In this document: positions 2,377-38,066 of the stretch, in pieces
How positions within the stretch are numbered: position 1 is the first letter of the stretch
Layout: every line of letters begins with the position of its first letter
Made by a program: the position numbers and the translations under genes
From: Chloroflexia bacterium
GTDB lineage: Bacteria; Chloroflexota; Chloroflexia; Thermomicrobiales; CFX8
Direction of reading: 5' to 3'
Length of the DNA stretch: 38,139 bases
NCBI GenBank assembly: GCA_030431755.1
Contig: JAUIIK010000040.1
Location: 1-38,139, forward strand
The notes under the pieces: model-generated
The model's input: the letters and a program-made list of their open reading frames with translations, nothing else
The model's database searches: none
Told to the model about the DNA's origin: nothing

Positions 2377-2391
2377 ATGGAGAGGAATGTT

Positions 2392-3555
2392 ATGTCGCTT
2401 CGATCTCGAGTTGAACCGACCGACCCCGTCGACGCCGTGACGGCAGACAATCCCTACGGGTACTACGCCCGGCTCGTCGCCGAACGGCCGCTCTACTTCG
2501 ATCACCGGCACGGCCTATGGGTAGTCTCCAGCGCACCCCTGGTCGAGGAGTGCCTGGAGTCGCGCGACTTCGGCGTGCGGCCGGCGAGCGAGCCGCTCCC
2601 GCCAGCGCTGGCCGGCTCGCTCGCCGGGGATGTCTTCCTGCGGCTCATCCGCATGACCGACGGCAGCCGCCACCGGCAATGCCGGCCGGTTGTCACAGGA
2701 GCCATGAGCGCGCTCACAGTCTCGACCATTGAGACGGCAGCCGCCAAGGTCATCGAAGATCTCGCGCAACACATCGTCGACGAACCACTAACCCGGCGGC
2801 TCGACCGCTTTGTCGCGGAGTTCCCGCTCGGCGTCACGGCGCGCCTGGCCGGCGTCTCACGCGACGCGCTACCAGATGTCACCCGGCACATTGCCGCGTT
2901 CGTCGCCGCGCTTCGGCCGGGCAGCACCATGGGCGAGGTTGAGCGTGGCATGATCGCCGCCGGGAACCTCGTCGAGCAGTTCGACAGGCCGCCTGCGCCG
3001 GACATCGCGCCACTCCGCTTGCCCCACACGCCAACCGTCGACCACGCCACGGCTGTCGCGAACACCATCGGCCTGCTTGTCCAGACATACGAGGCGACGG
3101 CAGGGCTGATCGGGAACGCGCTCGTGCAACTCCAGCGCGATGACGCAAGCGGAGTCCCGGCACCGGAGATCGACGAGCGTTTCCTGCGTGAAGTTGCCCG
3201 CTTCGATGCGCCGGTCCAGAACACGCGGCGCTATGCCCTCCGGGATTGCCTGCTCGGTGGCGCATCGTTGCGTTGGGGCGATGCGGTCCTCGTTGTCCTG
3301 GCCGCCGCCAATCGCGATCCCGCGGTCAACCCGAATCCGCACGACTTTGACCCCGACAGACGGGCAGCCCGGCTCTTTACCTGGGGACATGGATCGCACC
3401 AGTGCCCGGGCCAGCAGCTCTCCCTCGCCATCGCGCGGATTGGCCTTGCGGCCCTACGCGCCACCATCACCGATCATGCGACACTACCGACGCACATCGG
3501 ATATCGACCGCTCGGAAACGCCCGCATCCCGGTGTTCTCGGATTCGTCAGCATGA
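2392..3555 (+). CDS. Cytochrome P450
   Basis: A 387-aa soluble P450, the usual length for bacterial class I CYPs. Visible family marks are the ExxR motif (EVAR, residues 267-270), an I-helix region near TYEATAGLIG, and the heme loop FTWGHGSHQCPG with the axial Cys at 338. Such enzymes activate O2 at heme using electrons from a ferredoxin or similar partner; no redox partner gene is adjacent. The start at 2392 is preferred over the ATG at 2377 because GGAGAGG lies 6 nt upstream of it. The gene sits between an MFS transporter and an ABM-type monooxygenase, which suggests a small oxidative catabolic or detoxification unit. Substrate unknown. Confidence 0.92.
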   Translation: MSLRSRVEPTDPVDAVTADNPYGYYARLVAERPLYFDHRHGLWVVSSAPLVEECLESRDFGVRPASEPLPPALAGSLAGDVFLRLIRMTDGSRHRQCRPVVTGAMSALTVSTIETAAAKVIEDLAQHIVDEPLTRRLDRFVAEFPLGVTARLAGVSRDALPDVTRHIAAFVAALRPGSTMGEVERGMIAAGNLVEQFDRPPAPDIAPLRLPHTPTVDHATAVANTIGLLVQTYEATAGLIGNALVQLQRDDASGVPAPEIDERFLREVARFDAPVQNTRRYALRDCLLGGASLRWGDAVLVVLAAANRDPAVNPNPHDFDPDRRAARLFTWGHGSHQCPGQQLSLAIARIGLAALRATITDHATLPTHIGYRPLGNARIPVFSDSSA

Positions 3556-13373: not shown

Positions 13374-14651
13374 GTGCTACGTCAACTCCCCGCCTATCCT
13401 ATCTACCTGCTGATCCAGGGCGTCTTCGGGTTCGCCTTCGTGACCTTCGCCACGCTCAGCACGCTCTACCGCATCGAGACGGTCGGGCTGAACCCCTTCC
13501 AGCTCGTGCTCGTCGGCACGGCGCTGGAGCTGGCCGCCTTCAGCTTCGAGGTGCCGACCGGCATCCTGGCCGACCTCTACAGCCGGAGGCTCTCGGTCAT
13601 CATCGGGATGTTCCTCTTCGGAATCGGCTTCATGTTCGAGGGGCTACTGCCCTACTTCATCACCGTGCTGATCGCCCAGGTCATCTGGGGCGCAGGCTGG
13701 ACCTTCATCAGCGGCGCGCGCGAGGCCTGGATCGCCGATGAGCTGGGCGAGGCGGGCATCGGCAAGGTCTACCTGCGCGGCTCGCAGATCAACCAGCTCG
13801 GACTGATCCTCGGCGTGCCGCTGGCGGTCGTGCTCGGCAGCGTCAGCCTGGCGCTGCCGATGGTCGTTGGGGGCGCGATCTTCGTCGCGCTGGGTCTTGT
13901 CCTGGTCGTCGTCATGCCCGAGCATGGCTTCACCCCCGCGCCACGGACCGAGCGCACCACCTTCGGCTCGATGGGCGACACCTTCCGCGAAGGCGTATCG
14001 ACCATTCGCGGCCGGCCGGTCTTGATCACGATCACCATCATCGCCGTGCTCTGGGGGGCTGCCTCCGAGGGCTATGACCGGCTCTTCGCCAAGCATCTAG
14101 TCGACAACTTCAGCTTTCCGGCCCTGCCGGCCGGCCCCTTCGATGACATCGTCGTCTGGTTCGGGCTGATCCAGATCGTCGGGATGGCGATCTCGATTGG
14201 CGTGGCCGAGGTCTTGCGCCGCAAGATCGACACCGACAGCCACGAGGCCGTCGCGCGGGCGCTGCTTGTCTCGACCGCGCTGGTCGTCGTCTCGTTGGTT
14301 GGCTTCGCGCTGGCCGGGAGCTTCGGTGTCGCGATCGGCTTCGTCTGGTCGCTCGCCGTCTTCCGGGAGCTGAACTACCCGCTGACGAGCGCCTGGCTCA
14401 ACCAGAATCTCTCGTCACGAGTGCGAGCCACGGTTATCTCGATGCGCAGCCAGTCCGACGCCTTCGGCCAGATGTTCGTCGGTCCCATCCTCGGGCTCAT
14501 CGCGACGGTCGTTTCATTGCGAGCCAACTTCATCGTCGCGGCAGCGATCATCATGCCTGCGCTCTATCTCTACTGGCGGTCGCTCCAGGACAAGCGCGTG
14601 CTGGCAGCACCGCCTGAGAGCGCAGCGCCGGACGACGAGGGCGGCCCGTAG
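13374..14651 (+). CDS. MFS transporter (drug-efflux-like, DHA3-type)
   Basis: A 425-aa membrane protein with about 12 hydrophobic segments. The loop 2-3 motif GILADLYSRRLSVIIG corresponds to the MFS signature, and FISGAREAWIADEL is typical of the macrolide-efflux-like (DHA3) branch. The C-terminal 20 residues are an acidic tail. The GTG start at 13374 is preceded by CAGGAG at a 7-nt spacing. The selenoprotein gene begins 61 nt downstream on the same strand; co-transcription is possible but functional linkage is not clear. Confidence 0.88.
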   Translation: MLRQLPAYPIYLLIQGVFGFAFVTFATLSTLYRIETVGLNPFQLVLVGTALELAAFSFEVPTGILADLYSRRLSVIIGMFLFGIGFMFEGLLPYFITVLIAQVIWGAGWTFISGAREAWIADELGEAGIGKVYLRGSQINQLGLILGVPLAVVLGSVSLALPMVVGGAIFVALGLVLVVVMPEHGFTPAPRTERTTFGSMGDTFREGVSTIRGRPVLITITIIAVLWGAASEGYDRLFAKHLVDNFSFPALPAGPFDDIVVWFGLIQIVGMAISIGVAEVLRRKIDTDSHEAVARALLVSTALVVVSLVGFALAGSFGVAIGFVWSLAVFRELNYPLTSAWLNQNLSSRVRATVISMRSQSDAFGQMFVGPILGLIATVVSLRANFIVAAAIIMPALYLYWRSLQDKRVLAAPPESAAPDDEGGP

Positions 14652-14712
14652 CCGGGCGCGTCTGTGCGAAACTAGAGCGCACCGGAAGCGTGGCGTAACA
14701 ACGGAGGTATCG

Positions 14713-15627
14713 ATGACGACGTTCGTGGATCTGAACGCTCCCGTCGGCTATATGCAGCGTACGCGGGACTACTACCTGGCCCTCGGCTACAACAATCCGT
14801 ACCGCTGGTCGCACTTCGATGAAGTGCCCTTCACGCCGCTCAAGAAGCCACTGGCTGAGGCGCGGATCGCCCTGATCACGACCGCCGCGCCGTACCAACC
14901 GGAAGCCGGCGACCAGGGACCGAACGCCCGCTACAACGGCAACGCAAAGTTCTACCGGGTCTACTCCGACTCAACGTCGACGGAGCAGGCGCCCGACGTG
15001 CGTATCTCGCATGTCGTCTACGACCGCGATCACACGAGCGCCGAAGACCCGCACACCTGGTTTCCGCTGGCGCGGTTGCAAGCGGCGGCGGAGGCCGGCC
15101 GCATCGGCGGGCTGACCGAGCGCTTCCACTGCGCGCCAACCAACCGTAGCCAGCGCATGACGACTGACACCGACGCGCCCGAGCTGCTCAAACGCTGCCA
15201 GGAAGATGGCGCAGACGCCGTCATCCTCGTGCCCAACTGACCGATCTGCCACCAGACCGTGGGTCTGGTCGCCCGGCACATCGAAGCACACGGCATCCCG
15301 ACGGTCATCATGGGCTGTGCGAAGGACATCGTCGAGTACTGCGGCGTCCCGCGTCACCTCTTCAGCGACTTCCCGCTTGGCAACTCCTGCGGCAAACCCT
15401 TCGATGCCGAATCGCAAGCAGCGACGTTGGAGATGGCGTTCCAACTGCTCGAGTCGGCAACGGCCGCCCGGACGACGGTCCAGTCGCCCCAGCGCTGGGA
15501 CGGCGACGCTTCGTGGAAGGCCGACTACAGCAACGCCGACCGCCTGACGCCCGCACAGCTCGCCGAGCGGAAGCGCGAGTTCGAGACCGCCGAAGCCATC
15601 GGCCGGGAGAAACGCCGCAATATGTAA
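14713..15627 (+). CDS. Selenoprotein, glycine/sarcosine/betaine reductase B-like family, Sec at residue 176
   Basis: A 304-residue protein if the in-frame TGA at 15238-15240 is read as selenocysteine (Sec176). Upstream of the TGA the frame ends DGADAVILVPN; downstream it continues without shift as PICHQTVGLVARHIEAHGIPT and on to the stop at 15627. This places the residue in a U-P-I-C-H redox motif at a strand-helix junction, as expected for the active site of the GrdB-like family. A SECIS-type hairpin follows the TGA. The start has GGAGG 5 nt upstream. There is no good ribosome site or sensible N-terminus for a separate downstream gene, whose first possible start would fall inside the hairpin loop. 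The protein is smaller than true GrdB, and no GrdA, GrdE or thioredoxin partners are near, so its substrate is unknown. No sel genes are in the window. Confidence 0.85.
15238..15269 (+). promoter_or_regulatory. Bacterial SECIS element and Sec UGA codon
   Basis: TGA (15238-15240) is followed 10 nt later by a perfect 8-bp stem, ACCAGACC (15251-15258) with GGTCTGGT (15262-15269), closing a GTG loop. The loop begins 18 nt after the TGA and starts with G. Both fit the known bacterial SECIS rule of an apical loop about 16-37 nt after the UGA with a loop G that contacts SelB. The stem is also coding (HQTVGLV), as usual in bacteria. Confidence 0.85.
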
Positions 15628-32692: not shown

Positions 32693-33427
32693 TTAGAAGC
32701 CGACAATAATTAGGATTAAGATCACGAAGACTAGTAGTGTGTTTACCGCCAGCAAGATCGCGACGTAGTTGATACGTGATCTCACCAGGGATACTTCGCC
32801 ACTGACTGTTTCGATTTTCCCTCCAGTCTCAATGCGGCTAGATTCGAGAGAGCGGATCAGCTCTTCCTGATGGTTCTGCAACGAAACGAGGATGTCTCCG
32901 TGAGTTGCACCTAGCCGATCCGCCTCTTCCTCAATCCGTCGACGCACTGAAATCAGCGTGTCGATAGATGCATCAAAGCGCTCAGCGCTGAGCTGGAAGC
33001 GCTTCTCAACCTCCTTGGTGAGTTCTTGGACACGGCCATCATGTGTGTCCATCCGTGTATCGAAGTGATCACGCGTTGTGTTCACGGAACTTATGGCCAC
33101 ATTGACTGACTCTAGCGCCGACTGTAGTGCCTCCTTCGCCACGGTGTCGAACTGCTCTGCGCTGAGTTTGAACCGACTCTCGATTTCATGGCTGAGGTGT
33201 TCAACATTCGATTCATGGGCGTCGAGGCGTTCATCAAACCGTTCGCGCGATGCACGGACGGTACGAGCTGCTCCGCTTACGGCATTCGTTGCTTCCCGCA
33301 ATAGGTTCTCGACTTGACGTAGACCTTCTTTCGCGCTGACAACCTCTTGCGTTTCCTGGGCGAGCCTGCGTATCGACTGCTCAGCCTCTAATACCTCCTT
33401 CTGTCGGGATTCGTCAGGAGATGACAT
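32693..33427 (-). CDS. Coiled-coil protein with C-terminal membrane anchor
   Basis: A 244-aa protein, mostly charged heptad-like helix, ending in one hydrophobic segment (221-243, YVAILLAVNTLLVFVILILI). It contains an internal duplication with a 58-residue offset: RERFDERLDAHE...ESRFKLSAEQFD (61-94) and RDHFDTRMDTHD...EKRFQLSAERFD (119-152). No enzymatic motif. The ATG at 33427 lies inside the helicase 3' end (14-nt overlap) and has GGGGGAG 4 nt upstream, so translation is coupled to the helicase. It may tether the helicase-nuclease to the membrane or act as a sensor or effector; this is inference. GC content is lower than the window's left part. Confidence 0.8.
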   Translation of the reverse strand: MSSPDESRQKEVLEAEQSIRRLAQETQEVVSAKEGLRQVENLLREATNAVSGAARTVRASRERFDERLDAHESNVEHLSHEIESRFKLSAEQFDTVAKEALQSALESVNVAISSVNTTRDHFDTRMDTHDGRVQELTKEVEKRFQLSAERFDASIDTLISVRRRIEEEADRLGATHGDILVSLQNHQEELIRSLESSRIETGGKIETVSGEVSLVRSRINYVAILLAVNTLLVFVILILIIVGF

Positions 33428-36400
33428 AGTCTCCCCCCTTTCGTCTCGCGTCTTGTAGATGATCCAAAAGGTAACTCATCATGATCTCAAGCGATCGGTG
33501 ACAGACTCCGCTACCGTGAGGAGCATGTTCGTAACAGTATCGGGCAGCGTCCACTTGAACCTCCTTCGAGAATTCAGCCCGCATGACTGTTTCAAGGACG
33601 TGTTGCGGTGCCTCTGGAGACATCGTCTCTGACGACATTGATGCATCAAGGACTACCCGGATGAGTTTCTTTTGGTCTTCAGTATCGGCATGGGAGAGTA
33701 GCCCCATGTTGAAGCCGGCACGAAGATTCTCCACCCCATTTCGCCATTGTGAGCCCGATATGAGAGCAAGACCTTCGAGCAACAGAAGCGTCGGATTCTC
33801 TGGATCTTCTTCGCGACTGCGTTGGCACGCTCCCAGCAGTTCGCTTAAATCACCGGTCGTGAACACTTGCGACATAATTTGCTCAACGCTGGCTGATATC
33901 TCATCAGGATCCAATCCGGCGAGTGCGGCACTAAACTCTGACTCGCCAAGATAGGTCAGCAGCCTATTTCGAAATTGACGCTCCCCATCAGGCGTTACAG
34001 CCACGCGAGCTGCGAGCAGCATGTTCCGCATAGCTGTACGTCGCTGACCCTCGATCGTATCGTAGATATGGTCGACCAATTGTCGAGCACACTCGGCCAT
34101 CGCATCTCCGAGAACAATACCGGAAGGAATGGTCTGAGACACCCGTTTTCGTGCGTGACCCGGATATCTTTCGAGAAAGGCATTAAGAGAGTTGTAGAGG
34201 TCTTCGGTCGTCGGACGGCGCAGCGAAATACAGAATTTGTTTCTCGCGTAGTCCTTCATATAGCTTTGGATCGCACCGATTTCTTGTAGTCGATAGATTG
34301 CCTTCTCGAGAATCGTCTGATATTCATCGAATCGAGCTCCCTCCAGTTCGGGAGCGTTAGGCAGATCTCGTTCCAACCAGTCGAACGCGATGTCAACCGT
34401 CTCAGGGCCAATATGGCCGGTAGGAAGATTGTCAGTCACAAATGAATCTATCACGCGTTTCATCGCAGTTAGGTCGAATTCCCGACCGCGATATGCATTG
34501 CGGTGAAACCAGAGACTCCGCAATGCATCGTCGTCTTCCCACCATTTGTCAGAATGGCTGAGATCTTCCACCTCATCGTCTCGAATCTGGTCCGGCGACA
34601 GAATTACGTCGGAACGCTCTGGATCATCATCAGTGAATATCACGATGCATCGAGAAGTCTTCTGATCTCGTCCGGCTCGCCCCGCTTGCTGATAGAACTC
34701 CTCAAGAGAGCGCGGTAGCATGGCATGGATTGTGAAGCGCACATCTGGTTTGTCAATACCCATGCCAAAGGCGTGGGTACAGACGAGAATCGGTTTCGTG
34801 CCCCGCTTGAAATCGAGTTGGAGGCGTTGTTTCTCTGCATTCCATTCGCGATCGCTCATGGGTGTTCCGCGTGGTTTAGTACCTGCATACATTCCAATAT
34901 CTAACCCAAGATCGCTTGAGAGGTCCTTTGCGATTTGATCAGTCCCAAGATCCTTTGGGTTGATGAAGTAAGAAAAGATCAGTCCGCTTGGGATTCCAGA
35001 GGGGTAGCTATCACTGTCAGACTCGTTGTCAGAGAATTCATCGATGGCACTTCGTAGAGCCTCTTTCAGTGTTTCACGACGCTGTGAGACTGGCACTTTT
35101 TGAAACACGAACTCGAGTTCTGTGCGGTCGAAGGTGGCGGGTCTGACAACCGATTCCGGGTCATCGATCCGGAGTTCACGCTGCACATCGATCAGGACGT
35201 TCTCGGAAGCCGTGCCAGTGAGCCCGACAAGCACCGGGGGATTCTCTCCATCTGTTGTGCAATAGTCCGCCAGTGCCTTGCCGATGTTGAGATAGGAAGG
35301 GCGAAAGTCATGGCCCCATTCGCTTACGCAGTGCGCTTCATCGACAACGCAATAAACGATTGGGATCCCAACGACTTTCCGTTCAATGTGCTGTCTAAAC
35401 TCGGGCATGTGCAGACGTTCCGGCGCAACGAGAGAGAAGGCGGGCCACGCCTGCTCCAATGACAGATAGCGATCATTGCGCTCGTGCCTATTGAGGCCCC
35501 CGTGTAAATCGATTGCGCGGTGAATCCCGTGCAGTCTCAGCCCCTCATACTGATCGATGATGAGTGATACCAGTGGATCAACTACGAGGGTCAACCCTGG
35601 CTGGCAGAAGGCTACGAGCTGATAGCAGATCGATTTTCCAGCTCCAGTCGGCAGCAGCCCGACCACATCTTTGATAGCCAATGCGCGCCGGACAACCTCT
35701 AGCTGCCCTCGACGGAACTCGACCTTTCGAAACAGTTGCTGTAACAGATACTCTAGAGAGTTGTCGATGCCATACCTTCGCTCCTCACTCTGGGCAACAA
35801 CCGCACTTTGCTTAGATGGCAGGAGTGGTTCCAGCAGTTGGACCGGGACAGGGGCTGGAGAGATGACTACTGGCGCAGGCTCGCGACCGAGCGCTTCCCA
35901 GGCTTTGGCTGATGGAAACCCGAAGTATGCAAAGTCCGCTGGCTCGGCCGACACAGGATCCAATCGCGGACAAGGGCTGATATCGTGAAGTTCAGCAAAT
36001 GTGCGCAGCGTCTGGTTAATCGATGCAATCACCGGGTCCAGATTCATGCCGGTTGGATTCTCAATGGTTAGTGCTCGTCTCTGCGGGTTGGCATGAAGGT
36101 GATATGCAACTGCGGTCAGAAGCTGTGCTTCGGCAACCGGTAGCGCGACGAGATCAATAAGTACTTGTCTTAGTCTCGGCTTCAATGTCCGTAGACTATC
36201 GGCTGCGTTGAGAAGGTCGTCGCCGATCGCTGTCTGTGCGGCCGTCACAACCGCGTCTAGATGCGCTTCTCTTGTAGCCACTGAGTCGGCTTCACGCACT
36301 CGGTGCACGCTCCATTGGCTTTGTCTCAAGAGAGAACTTCGTGTGTTATCCATTGCTTTAGCGGTCTGACTGCTGTGTGTCGCTGCATCATCAATCTCAA

Positions 36401-37112
36401 TGACGTGTCGGACGACGGGATTTTCGAGCCCTTCAAGACCAAGAGTATCGAACGCGAAGTCCACGCGATCTGCTTCATCGATTGTGGTTGTCCACTGTTC
36501 GAAGGATTGCACCAAACCTCCAAACTCGCGTTGAGGGCGAAACAACAGAGCGAGTCTCGAATCCCCCAGTTTGTTGGAAAGTGACTGAAAGAAGGCCGTT
36601 TCCGGTCGAGTACACAGATCTTGGTAGAGCCGATCCAGGTGAGCGACTTCTTCGTCTGACACACAGAGTTCGGGGATGAGACAAACCTTTAGGAGGGTCT
36701 GCAAATCGGGTACCTGCGATGTGACAGTAAAGCGGATCTCGCCGCTGGAGTGATCTTCGTTCCACTCCAGCACATTCGCGGCTTCGGCCTGTTGCAGGAT
36801 GAATCGCTCAAGCTCGATGCTACAGGGAGCTGGACGCCCCCTTGTTGCGTATTTATGGACCAAAGCACCGAGCAGGCGAGATTCTCGCGTAAACTCGTCT
36901 GCTTCTTCCTTGGCGGCAACGATGTCGAGCGTCATTCCGCCACGGAATCGAAACATTGTTTCCAGCTTCCGTGACGCAAACGGGGTGACTAACTGGTCGG
37001 GGTCTAGCAGCCGCATGACCGATTCGGCAGCAAATGCGGCGGACGCCGTCCGGTGAAACCACGGACATCCCTTCCATGCCAGACCCGATTGTGGTGTGCT
37101 CATGCCGTCCAC
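33414..37112 (-). CDS. Large RecQ-type helicase with N-terminal nuclease-like domain
   Basis: A 1232-aa protein. The helicase core spans about 455-825: PTGAGKS Walker A (488-494), DEAH (591-594) within [27 protein letters not shown] (630-636), [13 protein letters not shown] (781-793) and QQAGRAGRD (808-816), with the RecQ aromatic-loop-like [11 protein letters not shown]. Before it, residues 215-275 read as a DUF559/Vsr-like signature: RVDFAFD, then [11 protein letters not shown], then D..R...L...W.V.R. The region after 830 is helical and has no recognisable RecQ zinc site or HRDC domain. Ordinary RecQ is about 600 aa. GTG start at 37112 has AAGG 5 nt upstream, one base after the small ORF's stop. 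Likely unwinds and perhaps cleaves foreign DNA; role inferred. Confidence 0.88.
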   Translation of the reverse strand: [1232 protein letters not shown]

Positions 37113-37113
37113 T

Positions 37114-37302
37114 CTAACCTTGCGTTACATACATGACCCAGCAACGGGGCGGACAGCGAGGATTCAGGAAGCTGTCCATTATGTAGTCCAGTGCCTGTGA
37201 TGCGGGTCTCGGTTCGAGGTTTGTGCTACCCCGAACAAGACGATGATTGGGTGCGGCCAACGTTCGCGTGATGCGCGCATAGATGCTCAACCTCTCAAAC
37301 AT
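37114..37302 (-). CDS. Possible 62-aa protein coupled between nuclease and helicase
   Basis: The ATG (37302) overlaps the nuclease stop as TGATG, and the TAG (37114-37116) is one base before the helicase GTG, so the ORF fills the gap between the two genes exactly. The product begins MFERLSIYARITRTLAAPNH and ends PRCPPRCWVMYVTQG, with three cysteines near the end. No family recognised and no independent ribosome site. It may simply carry ribosomes across to the helicase. Confidence 0.4.
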   Translation of the reverse strand: MFERLSIYARITRTLAAPNHRLVRGSTNLEPRPASQALDYIMDSFLNPRCPPRCWVMYVTQG

Positions 37303-38066
37303 CACGACGGGAGTGGGCTGACGATGTCTTCGAGCCGGTCACGGATTTCGTCCTTGAGCTCGCGGACCGACTCTTTGCTCAGGTAGTGCACGAGCTCTGG
37401 CCAGCTTGCTTCGAGCGTCTCGCGCTGGCACTGGAAGATGCATTCCGGCTGGAGGCCTGGCGGGTTGTAGAAGAGCCTCAATTCCCGGGAGTTTGTCACC
37501 AGATACAACGGCGCATTGAGCCACTGGGCGTAGCTCCGGCCCTGACTCATCGCACTAACTGTAAGGTCGATTTTCGGCCCCTTCGCCTCGACGACGAGTA
37601 GCGCTTCGTCGTTGTCCTGATCGTCGAAGACAACGAGATCTGCTTGGTAGTGCTTCGTCTGCGACCCATGGTTGATGATGAGACGGTGCTTCAGCGACAG
37701 TTCACGCTCCGCGTAGCCGAGATGCCTGAGCAACGGTTGGACATAGTAAGACTCGACTTCCCCCTCATTGCGGAGCGGCTTCGAAGCCATATCCGCGAAC
37801 CATGCCTCATCCGGCCAGGGGGCGGTGTTCGTCGCGGTGAACGTCAACCACTCCGTCGGCCCCTCGCTGCCGAAATCTCCATCAAGCTCGACGACGAGGT
37901 GCTTATCATTCAGTAGCGCTTGAACCGCGTCAATACGTGGCTGCGTTCGCCGGTGGATGGCGAGGCGCTTCTCCCAGAACGTGCGACTGTGAATACGCTT
38001 CCGCCGGTCGTGGTCGACCCGCAGCTCGTGGCGCAACTGTGTAATCGCCTTCTCGTCAGCATTCAT
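37302..38066 (-). CDS. HsdR_N-type PD-(D/E)xK nuclease domain protein
   Basis: A 254-aa protein matching the N-terminal nuclease domain of type I restriction R subunits, without the helicase part. Catalytic-core signals: Glu105 in NEGEVESYYVQPLLRHLGY, Asp143 in YQADLVVFD and Glu160-x-Lys162 in LLVVEAKGP; then MSQGRSYAQWLNAPLYLVTNSRELRLF, the usual Q-containing motif of this family. The first 60 residues are a charged helical extension. Cytoplasmic. The ATG at 38066 is the first clear start and only 73 bases of the window lie beyond it. First gene of the four-gene coupled set. Stand-alone HsdR_N proteins are known, but this pairing with a large RecQ protein suggests a joint DNA-targeting role. 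Confidence 0.82.
   Translation of the reverse strand: MNADEKAITQLRHELRVDHDRRKRIHSRTFWEKRLAIHRRTQPRIDAVQALLNDKHLVVELDGDFGSEGPTEWLTFTATNTAPWPDEAWFADMASKPLRNEGEVESYYVQPLLRHLGYAERELSLKHRLIINHGSQTKHYQADLVVFDDQDNDEALLVVEAKGPKIDLTVSAMSQGRSYAQWLNAPLYLVTNSRELRLFYNPPGLQPECIFQCQRETLEASWPELVHYLSKESVRELKDEIRDRLEDIVSPLPS

Follow-up and report, generated by a model that had tools for sequence, protein, structure and literature searches.

The window, i.e. the whole stretch of 38,139 nucleotides of Chloroflexia DNA analysed here, contains a frame that is open from an ATG to a TAA (14713-15627) and is interrupted solely by a TGA at 15238-15240, as seen both by direct reading and in the ORF listing. Translation of this TGA as selenocysteine (Sec) yields a protein of 304 residues with the motif N-U176-P-I-C179-H. 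The locus comprises the following features:

13374-14651, forward strand: MFS transporter gene (PF07690, 64.5 bits), 61 nt upstream of the selenoprotein gene
14703-14707, forward strand: Shine-Dalgarno-like GGAGG, separated by 5 nt from the ATG at 14713, read directly
14713-15627, forward strand: predicted gene for a PrdB/GrdB-like selenoprotein of 304 residues with Sec at 176, frame ended by TAA at 15627
15238-15240, forward strand: in-frame TGA, predicted Sec codon of U176, Cys or TGA in the best 80 homologs and aligned with the prdB TGA of a prd operon
15247-15249, forward strand: codon of Cys179, which closes the UxxC redox motif, placed by alignment
15251-15269, forward strand: SECIS hairpin with stem 15251-15258/15262-15269 and loop GTG 15259-15261, supported by folding, synonymous control, and covariation

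The initial annotation had described a frame running unshifted through the TGA into a U-P-I-C-H motif and had expected ordinary gene calling to split the gene. Its coordinates are exact on re-reading, and mechanical ORF calling returns two fragments, 14713-15240 (175 aa) and 15259-15627 (122 aa). Reading the TGA as Sec mends a gene that standard annotation would break in two. The halves on either side of the TGA are alike in codon-position GC and in conservation (about 60% identity each to homologs). A search of the window against Rfam gave no match.

An operon with the upstream MFS gene is not claimed; this association is absent from the relative in a genome of the same family, and the MFS gene is therefore left out of the system. 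Elsewhere in the window, frames named by eye from their translations include a cytochrome P450-like frame (2377-3555) and, within region 32693-38066, a RecQ-like helicase (33414-37112) with a restriction-type frame (37302-38066) close by.

Decoding of the TGA at 15238

Among the best 80 homolog loci, the codon at this site is TGA in 15 and Cys (TGC/TGT) in 65, with no other residue. All 80 continue past the position and none ends there, so that both the Cys counterparts expected by the initial annotation and the continuing domain are found. The TGA homologs come from Rokubacteria, Pseudomonadota, and the same-family genome. Closest are the Rokubacteria (65-68% identity, TGA), and the gene of the same-family genome, likewise with TGA, is 66% identical. 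Other genomes of the class with a match mostly hold distant paralogs only (27-39% identity), nearly all with TGA. In the tree, five sequences, those of the Rokubacteria and the same-family genome among them, group at 80/91, apart from these distant Sec paralogs. Sec and Cys forms are clustered, with 4 changes for three states. Position 179 is Cys across the alignment with the exception of UxxU paralogs, in which a second TGA occupies this site. As judged from the aligned sequences, the comparison shows U176 and C179 to be under strong constraint.

The 65-to-15 excess of Cys over TGA among the best 80 homologs, together with the draft state of the assembly (272 contigs), would suit a formerly plain Cys protein that has become a pseudogene or contains a sequencing error at the TGA. 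However, the TGA recurs in 15 homologs of Rokubacteria and Pseudomonadota and in the same-family genome, the frame shows neither a frameshift nor a further stop, and its halves are equally conserved. Moreover, the SECIS element is retained together with the TGA, and the genome possesses Sec machinery. A damaged gene is thus highly improbable.

The perfect 8-bp stem of the hairpin lies 10 nt downstream of the TGA and the loop 18 nt; folding returns the identical structure. Published limits for bacterial SECIS elements are a loop of 3-9 nt, a stem of 4-16 bp, a spacing of 16-37 nt, an MFE <= -7.5, and a G within the first two loop positions (PMC13188914). The window hairpin falls within all of these limits, and every figure given for it in the initial annotation, which had called it SECIS-compliant, is right. 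When the stretch is recoded synonymously with local codon use, a stem that long appears within the searched range in 2.8% of cases, and 1.0% match the stability of the fold over 48 nt. Since 1-3% of synonymous recodings match by chance, the hairpin of one sequence would by itself be no more than suggestive.

The SECIS assignment rests on the homologs, as the helix is conserved and covaries in the TGA forms. In an alignment of 26 TGA-bearing sequences (the window gene and 25 other TGA homologs, among them paralogs with protein identity as low as 30-37%), pairing in the helix amounts to 89.4%, and 23 cells carry changes on both sides. When the partners are slid by 1-3 columns as a control, pairing in the same sequences falls to 9-43%. 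A C-G/T-A exchange at columns 15/31 is present in both subfamilies, while an A-T/T-A exchange at columns 19/27 divides the two subfamilies and may represent a single event. For the 45 nt beginning at the codon, folding energies average -16.0 kcal/mol in 16 TGA forms and -10.1 in the 65 Cys forms. The hairpin is missing in most of the 15 Cys homologs displayed.

The genome (5.1 Mb, 97% complete) encodes tRNA-Sec with a UCA anticodon (78 bits), selB (318 bits), selA (506 bits), and selD (363 bits). It thereby contains the full Sec pathway predicted by the initial annotation, including selB and tRNA-Sec, on whose presence that reading depended. The catalytic position of SelD is itself an in-frame TGA, and a further TGA lies at the usual Sec site of a formate dehydrogenase:

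G000:C13:10733-11668 (L103), reverse strand: selD of the Sec type, TGA in STAGUASK
L147:780-2648 (G000:C193): formate dehydrogenase alpha subunit (FdhA), in-frame TGA in RTUHAPSV

FdhA scores 648 bits against a profile cut-off of 666, with the first about 50 profile positions outside the match. At least three selenoproteins are predicted in this genome from sequence, the window gene being the likely third beside SelD and FdhA.

The initial annotation had considered a Sec pathway notable if the host were an aerobic member of the Chloroflexota without glycine reductase operons. The absence of such an operon appears to hold, PrdA/GrdE and GrdA both being unmatched (GrdA in a search without positive control), but the pathway itself is ordinary in the class, in which 101 of 158 genomes contain tRNA-Sec. 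The gene family and tRNA-Sec co-occur in the class significantly, though not exactly: of the 52 genomes with such genes, 42 have a tRNA-Sec match, versus 59 of the 106 others (Fisher p 0.0025, kinship ignored). The ten genomes with such genes and no tRNA-Sec match are mostly incomplete assemblies, with stricter filters applied.

The alternatives to Sec are translation of the TGA as another amino acid, e.g. Trp by code reassignment, or leaky readthrough; readthrough would be compatible with the sequence alone. Against reassignment, 8 of the 20 likely window genes end in TGA, which is therefore a normal stop here. Further, the partner residue in the best 80 homologs is always Cys and the Sec pathway is complete, so that decoding as anything but Sec has very little probability. 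Pseudogene, assembly error, and code reassignment are rejected on the homolog, SECIS, and Sec-pathway evidence. UGA 15238 is almost certainly decoded as selenocysteine at residue 176, as predicted from these comparisons. The window gene leaves the view of selenocysteine decoding itself unchanged.

Relation to PrdB and GrdB

The protein passes the Pfam GRDB model PF07355 with 36 bits (gathering cut-off 22). Among named families, PrdB comes closest, rather than the GrdB of the initial annotation; to each of the two, the protein is an outlying, stand-alone relative. TIGR04483 (PrdB) is the best NCBIfam match, with 88.5 bits spanning the TGA and an equivalog cut-off of 300, while both GrdB models are missed (TIGR01918, 43.7 of 65.45; TIGR01917, 40.5 of 602.2). 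PrdB controls from Acetoanaerobium and from the annotated prd operon of Enterococcus raffinosus reach 392 and 400 bits against TIGR04483, and both carry an in-frame TGA at the codon aligned with U176. The prdB of Acetoanaerobium noterae (NZ_CP154629.1, L156:3989-4660, UGTCHRS around the in-frame TGA) is unannotated; its 2.6 Mb record is labelled a plasmid and, to judge from its size, is probably the chromosome.

PrdB and the window protein share the Sec at the aligned position, the UxxC motif, about 30% identity, and the invariant residues P39, L47, D112, P118, U176, C179, R188, R214, and G223. In contrast to PrdB, the window protein extends further at both its N-terminus and its C-terminus, scores far under the equivalog cut-off, and is found alongside neither a PrdA-type proprotein nor a prd operon. 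Compared to GrdB, GrdF, and GrdH (PF07355, TIGR01918), it passes the PF07355 cut-off with a match that stops just before the Sec, but leaves roughly the first 200 profile positions uncovered and stays below the TIGR01918 cut-off.

The partner proteins of the classical reductases were sought in the same genome. The PrdA/GrdE pyruvoyl proprotein (PF09338) has no match in the 97% complete genome; the same search found one match in another genome of the class (G127) and, as this recovery indicates, works. GrdA (PF04723) gave no match in a search of the genome without positive control, and no prd-type neighbours are seen around the gene in the window. With PrdA/GrdE not found and GrdA unmatched, classical D-proline or glycine reduction is most likely not the reaction of this protein.

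TIGR04483 as the best NCBIfam match, as well as the alignment of the Sec position and its flanking residues with PrdB of a prd operon, would also be expected of a genuine PrdB of D-proline reductase (or GrdB of glycine reductase) whose partner escaped the search. Yet the score of 88.5 bits lies far from the cut-off and from both controls, the identity is low, the terminal extensions are lacking in PrdB, and neither PF09338 nor prd-type neighbours turned up. A true reductase subunit is therefore improbable, though somewhat less so than a defective gene or a reassigned codon. Instead, the window protein is probably a stand-alone PrdB/GrdB-like Sec/Cys protein and not a D-proline or glycine reductase.

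Near full-length relatives are annotated in RefSeq as "glycine/sarcosine/betaine reductase selenoprotein B family protein" in Pseudomonadota, the plasmid-borne ones at 55-62% identity. The Cys homologs share the CPxCHQ motif. In contrast to the window gene with its Sec codon and SECIS hairpin, these relatives are mostly Cys forms without a conserved SECIS. The PrdB-like subfamily thus occurs as a Sec form in a few presumed Chloroflexota, Rokubacteria, and Pseudomonadota and as a Cys form in many more Pseudomonadota, a natural Sec/Cys pair that offers a handle on the role of the enzyme. One plasmid-encoded relative, in Roseomonas haemaphysalidis, lies beside the gene of the protein adenylyltransferase SelO in convergent orientation (L157:5971-8356), which may be chance. 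The SelO family has selenoprotein members elsewhere.

The window gene joins the UxxC "PrdB" selenoproteins known since 2005, when 42 such genes were described from the Sargasso Sea (PMC1088965); the GOS survey of 2008 counted 235 Sec and 110 Cys forms of PrdB (PMC2398784). Common to both sets and the window gene are UxxC, the PrdB/pfam07355 assignment, and the existence of Sec and Cys forms, there in marine bacteria. The earlier sequences are marine metagenome sequences, to which the window gene is likened by motif and family label, whereas the genome of the window gene supplies Sec genes of its own. In the literature, we found no paper characterising a stand-alone PrdB-like protein of the window type.

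Structure model and possible function

The structure model (pLDDT 93) places Sec176 and Cys179 at the N-terminus of helix 177-192, following strand 169-173. A fold search of the PDB gave no match (best E 0.02, TM below 0.3), and a sequence search of the PDB found no relative. Because no solved structure resembles the model, the redox role is drawn from the motif and the family.

Taken together, the gene very probably encodes a stand-alone PrdB/GrdB-like selenoprotein, in which a SelB/SECIS-decoded Sec176 belongs to a UxxC redox pair. SelB with Sec-tRNA(UCA) would bind the hairpin just after UGA 15238, leading to insertion of Sec at 176. Sec176 and Cys179 likely form a selenol/thiol redox centre. 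By analogy with the chemistry of the family, the selenolate would attack the substrate and then form a Se-S bond with Cys179, which a thiol donor such as thioredoxin would reset.

The genomic context of the relatives points weakly to small-molecule catabolism. CoA-transferase III leads the commonest neighbour cluster and lies directly downstream on the same strand at 13 loci, and it follows the gene in several Pseudomonadota. As the cluster is polluted by spurious ORFs and many of the further shared neighbours are contributed by close relatives alone, this context is a weak hint. Around the relative in the same-family genome, the neighbours are hydantoinase B, a CMD-family protein, and creatininase.

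A broader reading, which we consider evenly balanced between right and wrong, is that of a stand-alone family with the motif U/C-P-[VI]-C-H-Q, performing selenol/thiol catalysis on a small catabolic metabolite without a pyruvoyl partner, for which the label "proline/glycine reductase" would be wrong. It spans Chloroflexota, Rokubacteria, and Pseudomonadota, and the reaction would be one undescribed so far.

Candidate UxxU paralogs in the class

Seven genomes of the class (G054, G135, G131, G095, G099, G134, and G053; loci L140-L146) carry a distant PrdB-like paralog with the sequence UPIUHQS, whose two in-frame TGAs lie three codons apart and align with U176 and C179. At E <= 1e-60, a phylum sample of 400 genomes yielded this paralog in G095 only. 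From their sequences, these proteins look like UxxU selenoproteins. UxxU is on record for Prx-like, mercuric reductase-like, and FmdB-like families in a 2026 review, and PrdB is not among the families recorded in the passages of that review consulted here. Two of the carriers, G135 and G095, gave no tRNA-Sec match. Four of the UPIUHQS paralogs were placed in the tree, where they fall into a single clade (100/98). The predicted folds vary between copies; on one reading, they could form a hairpin whose loop would lie 18 nt downstream of the second TGA.
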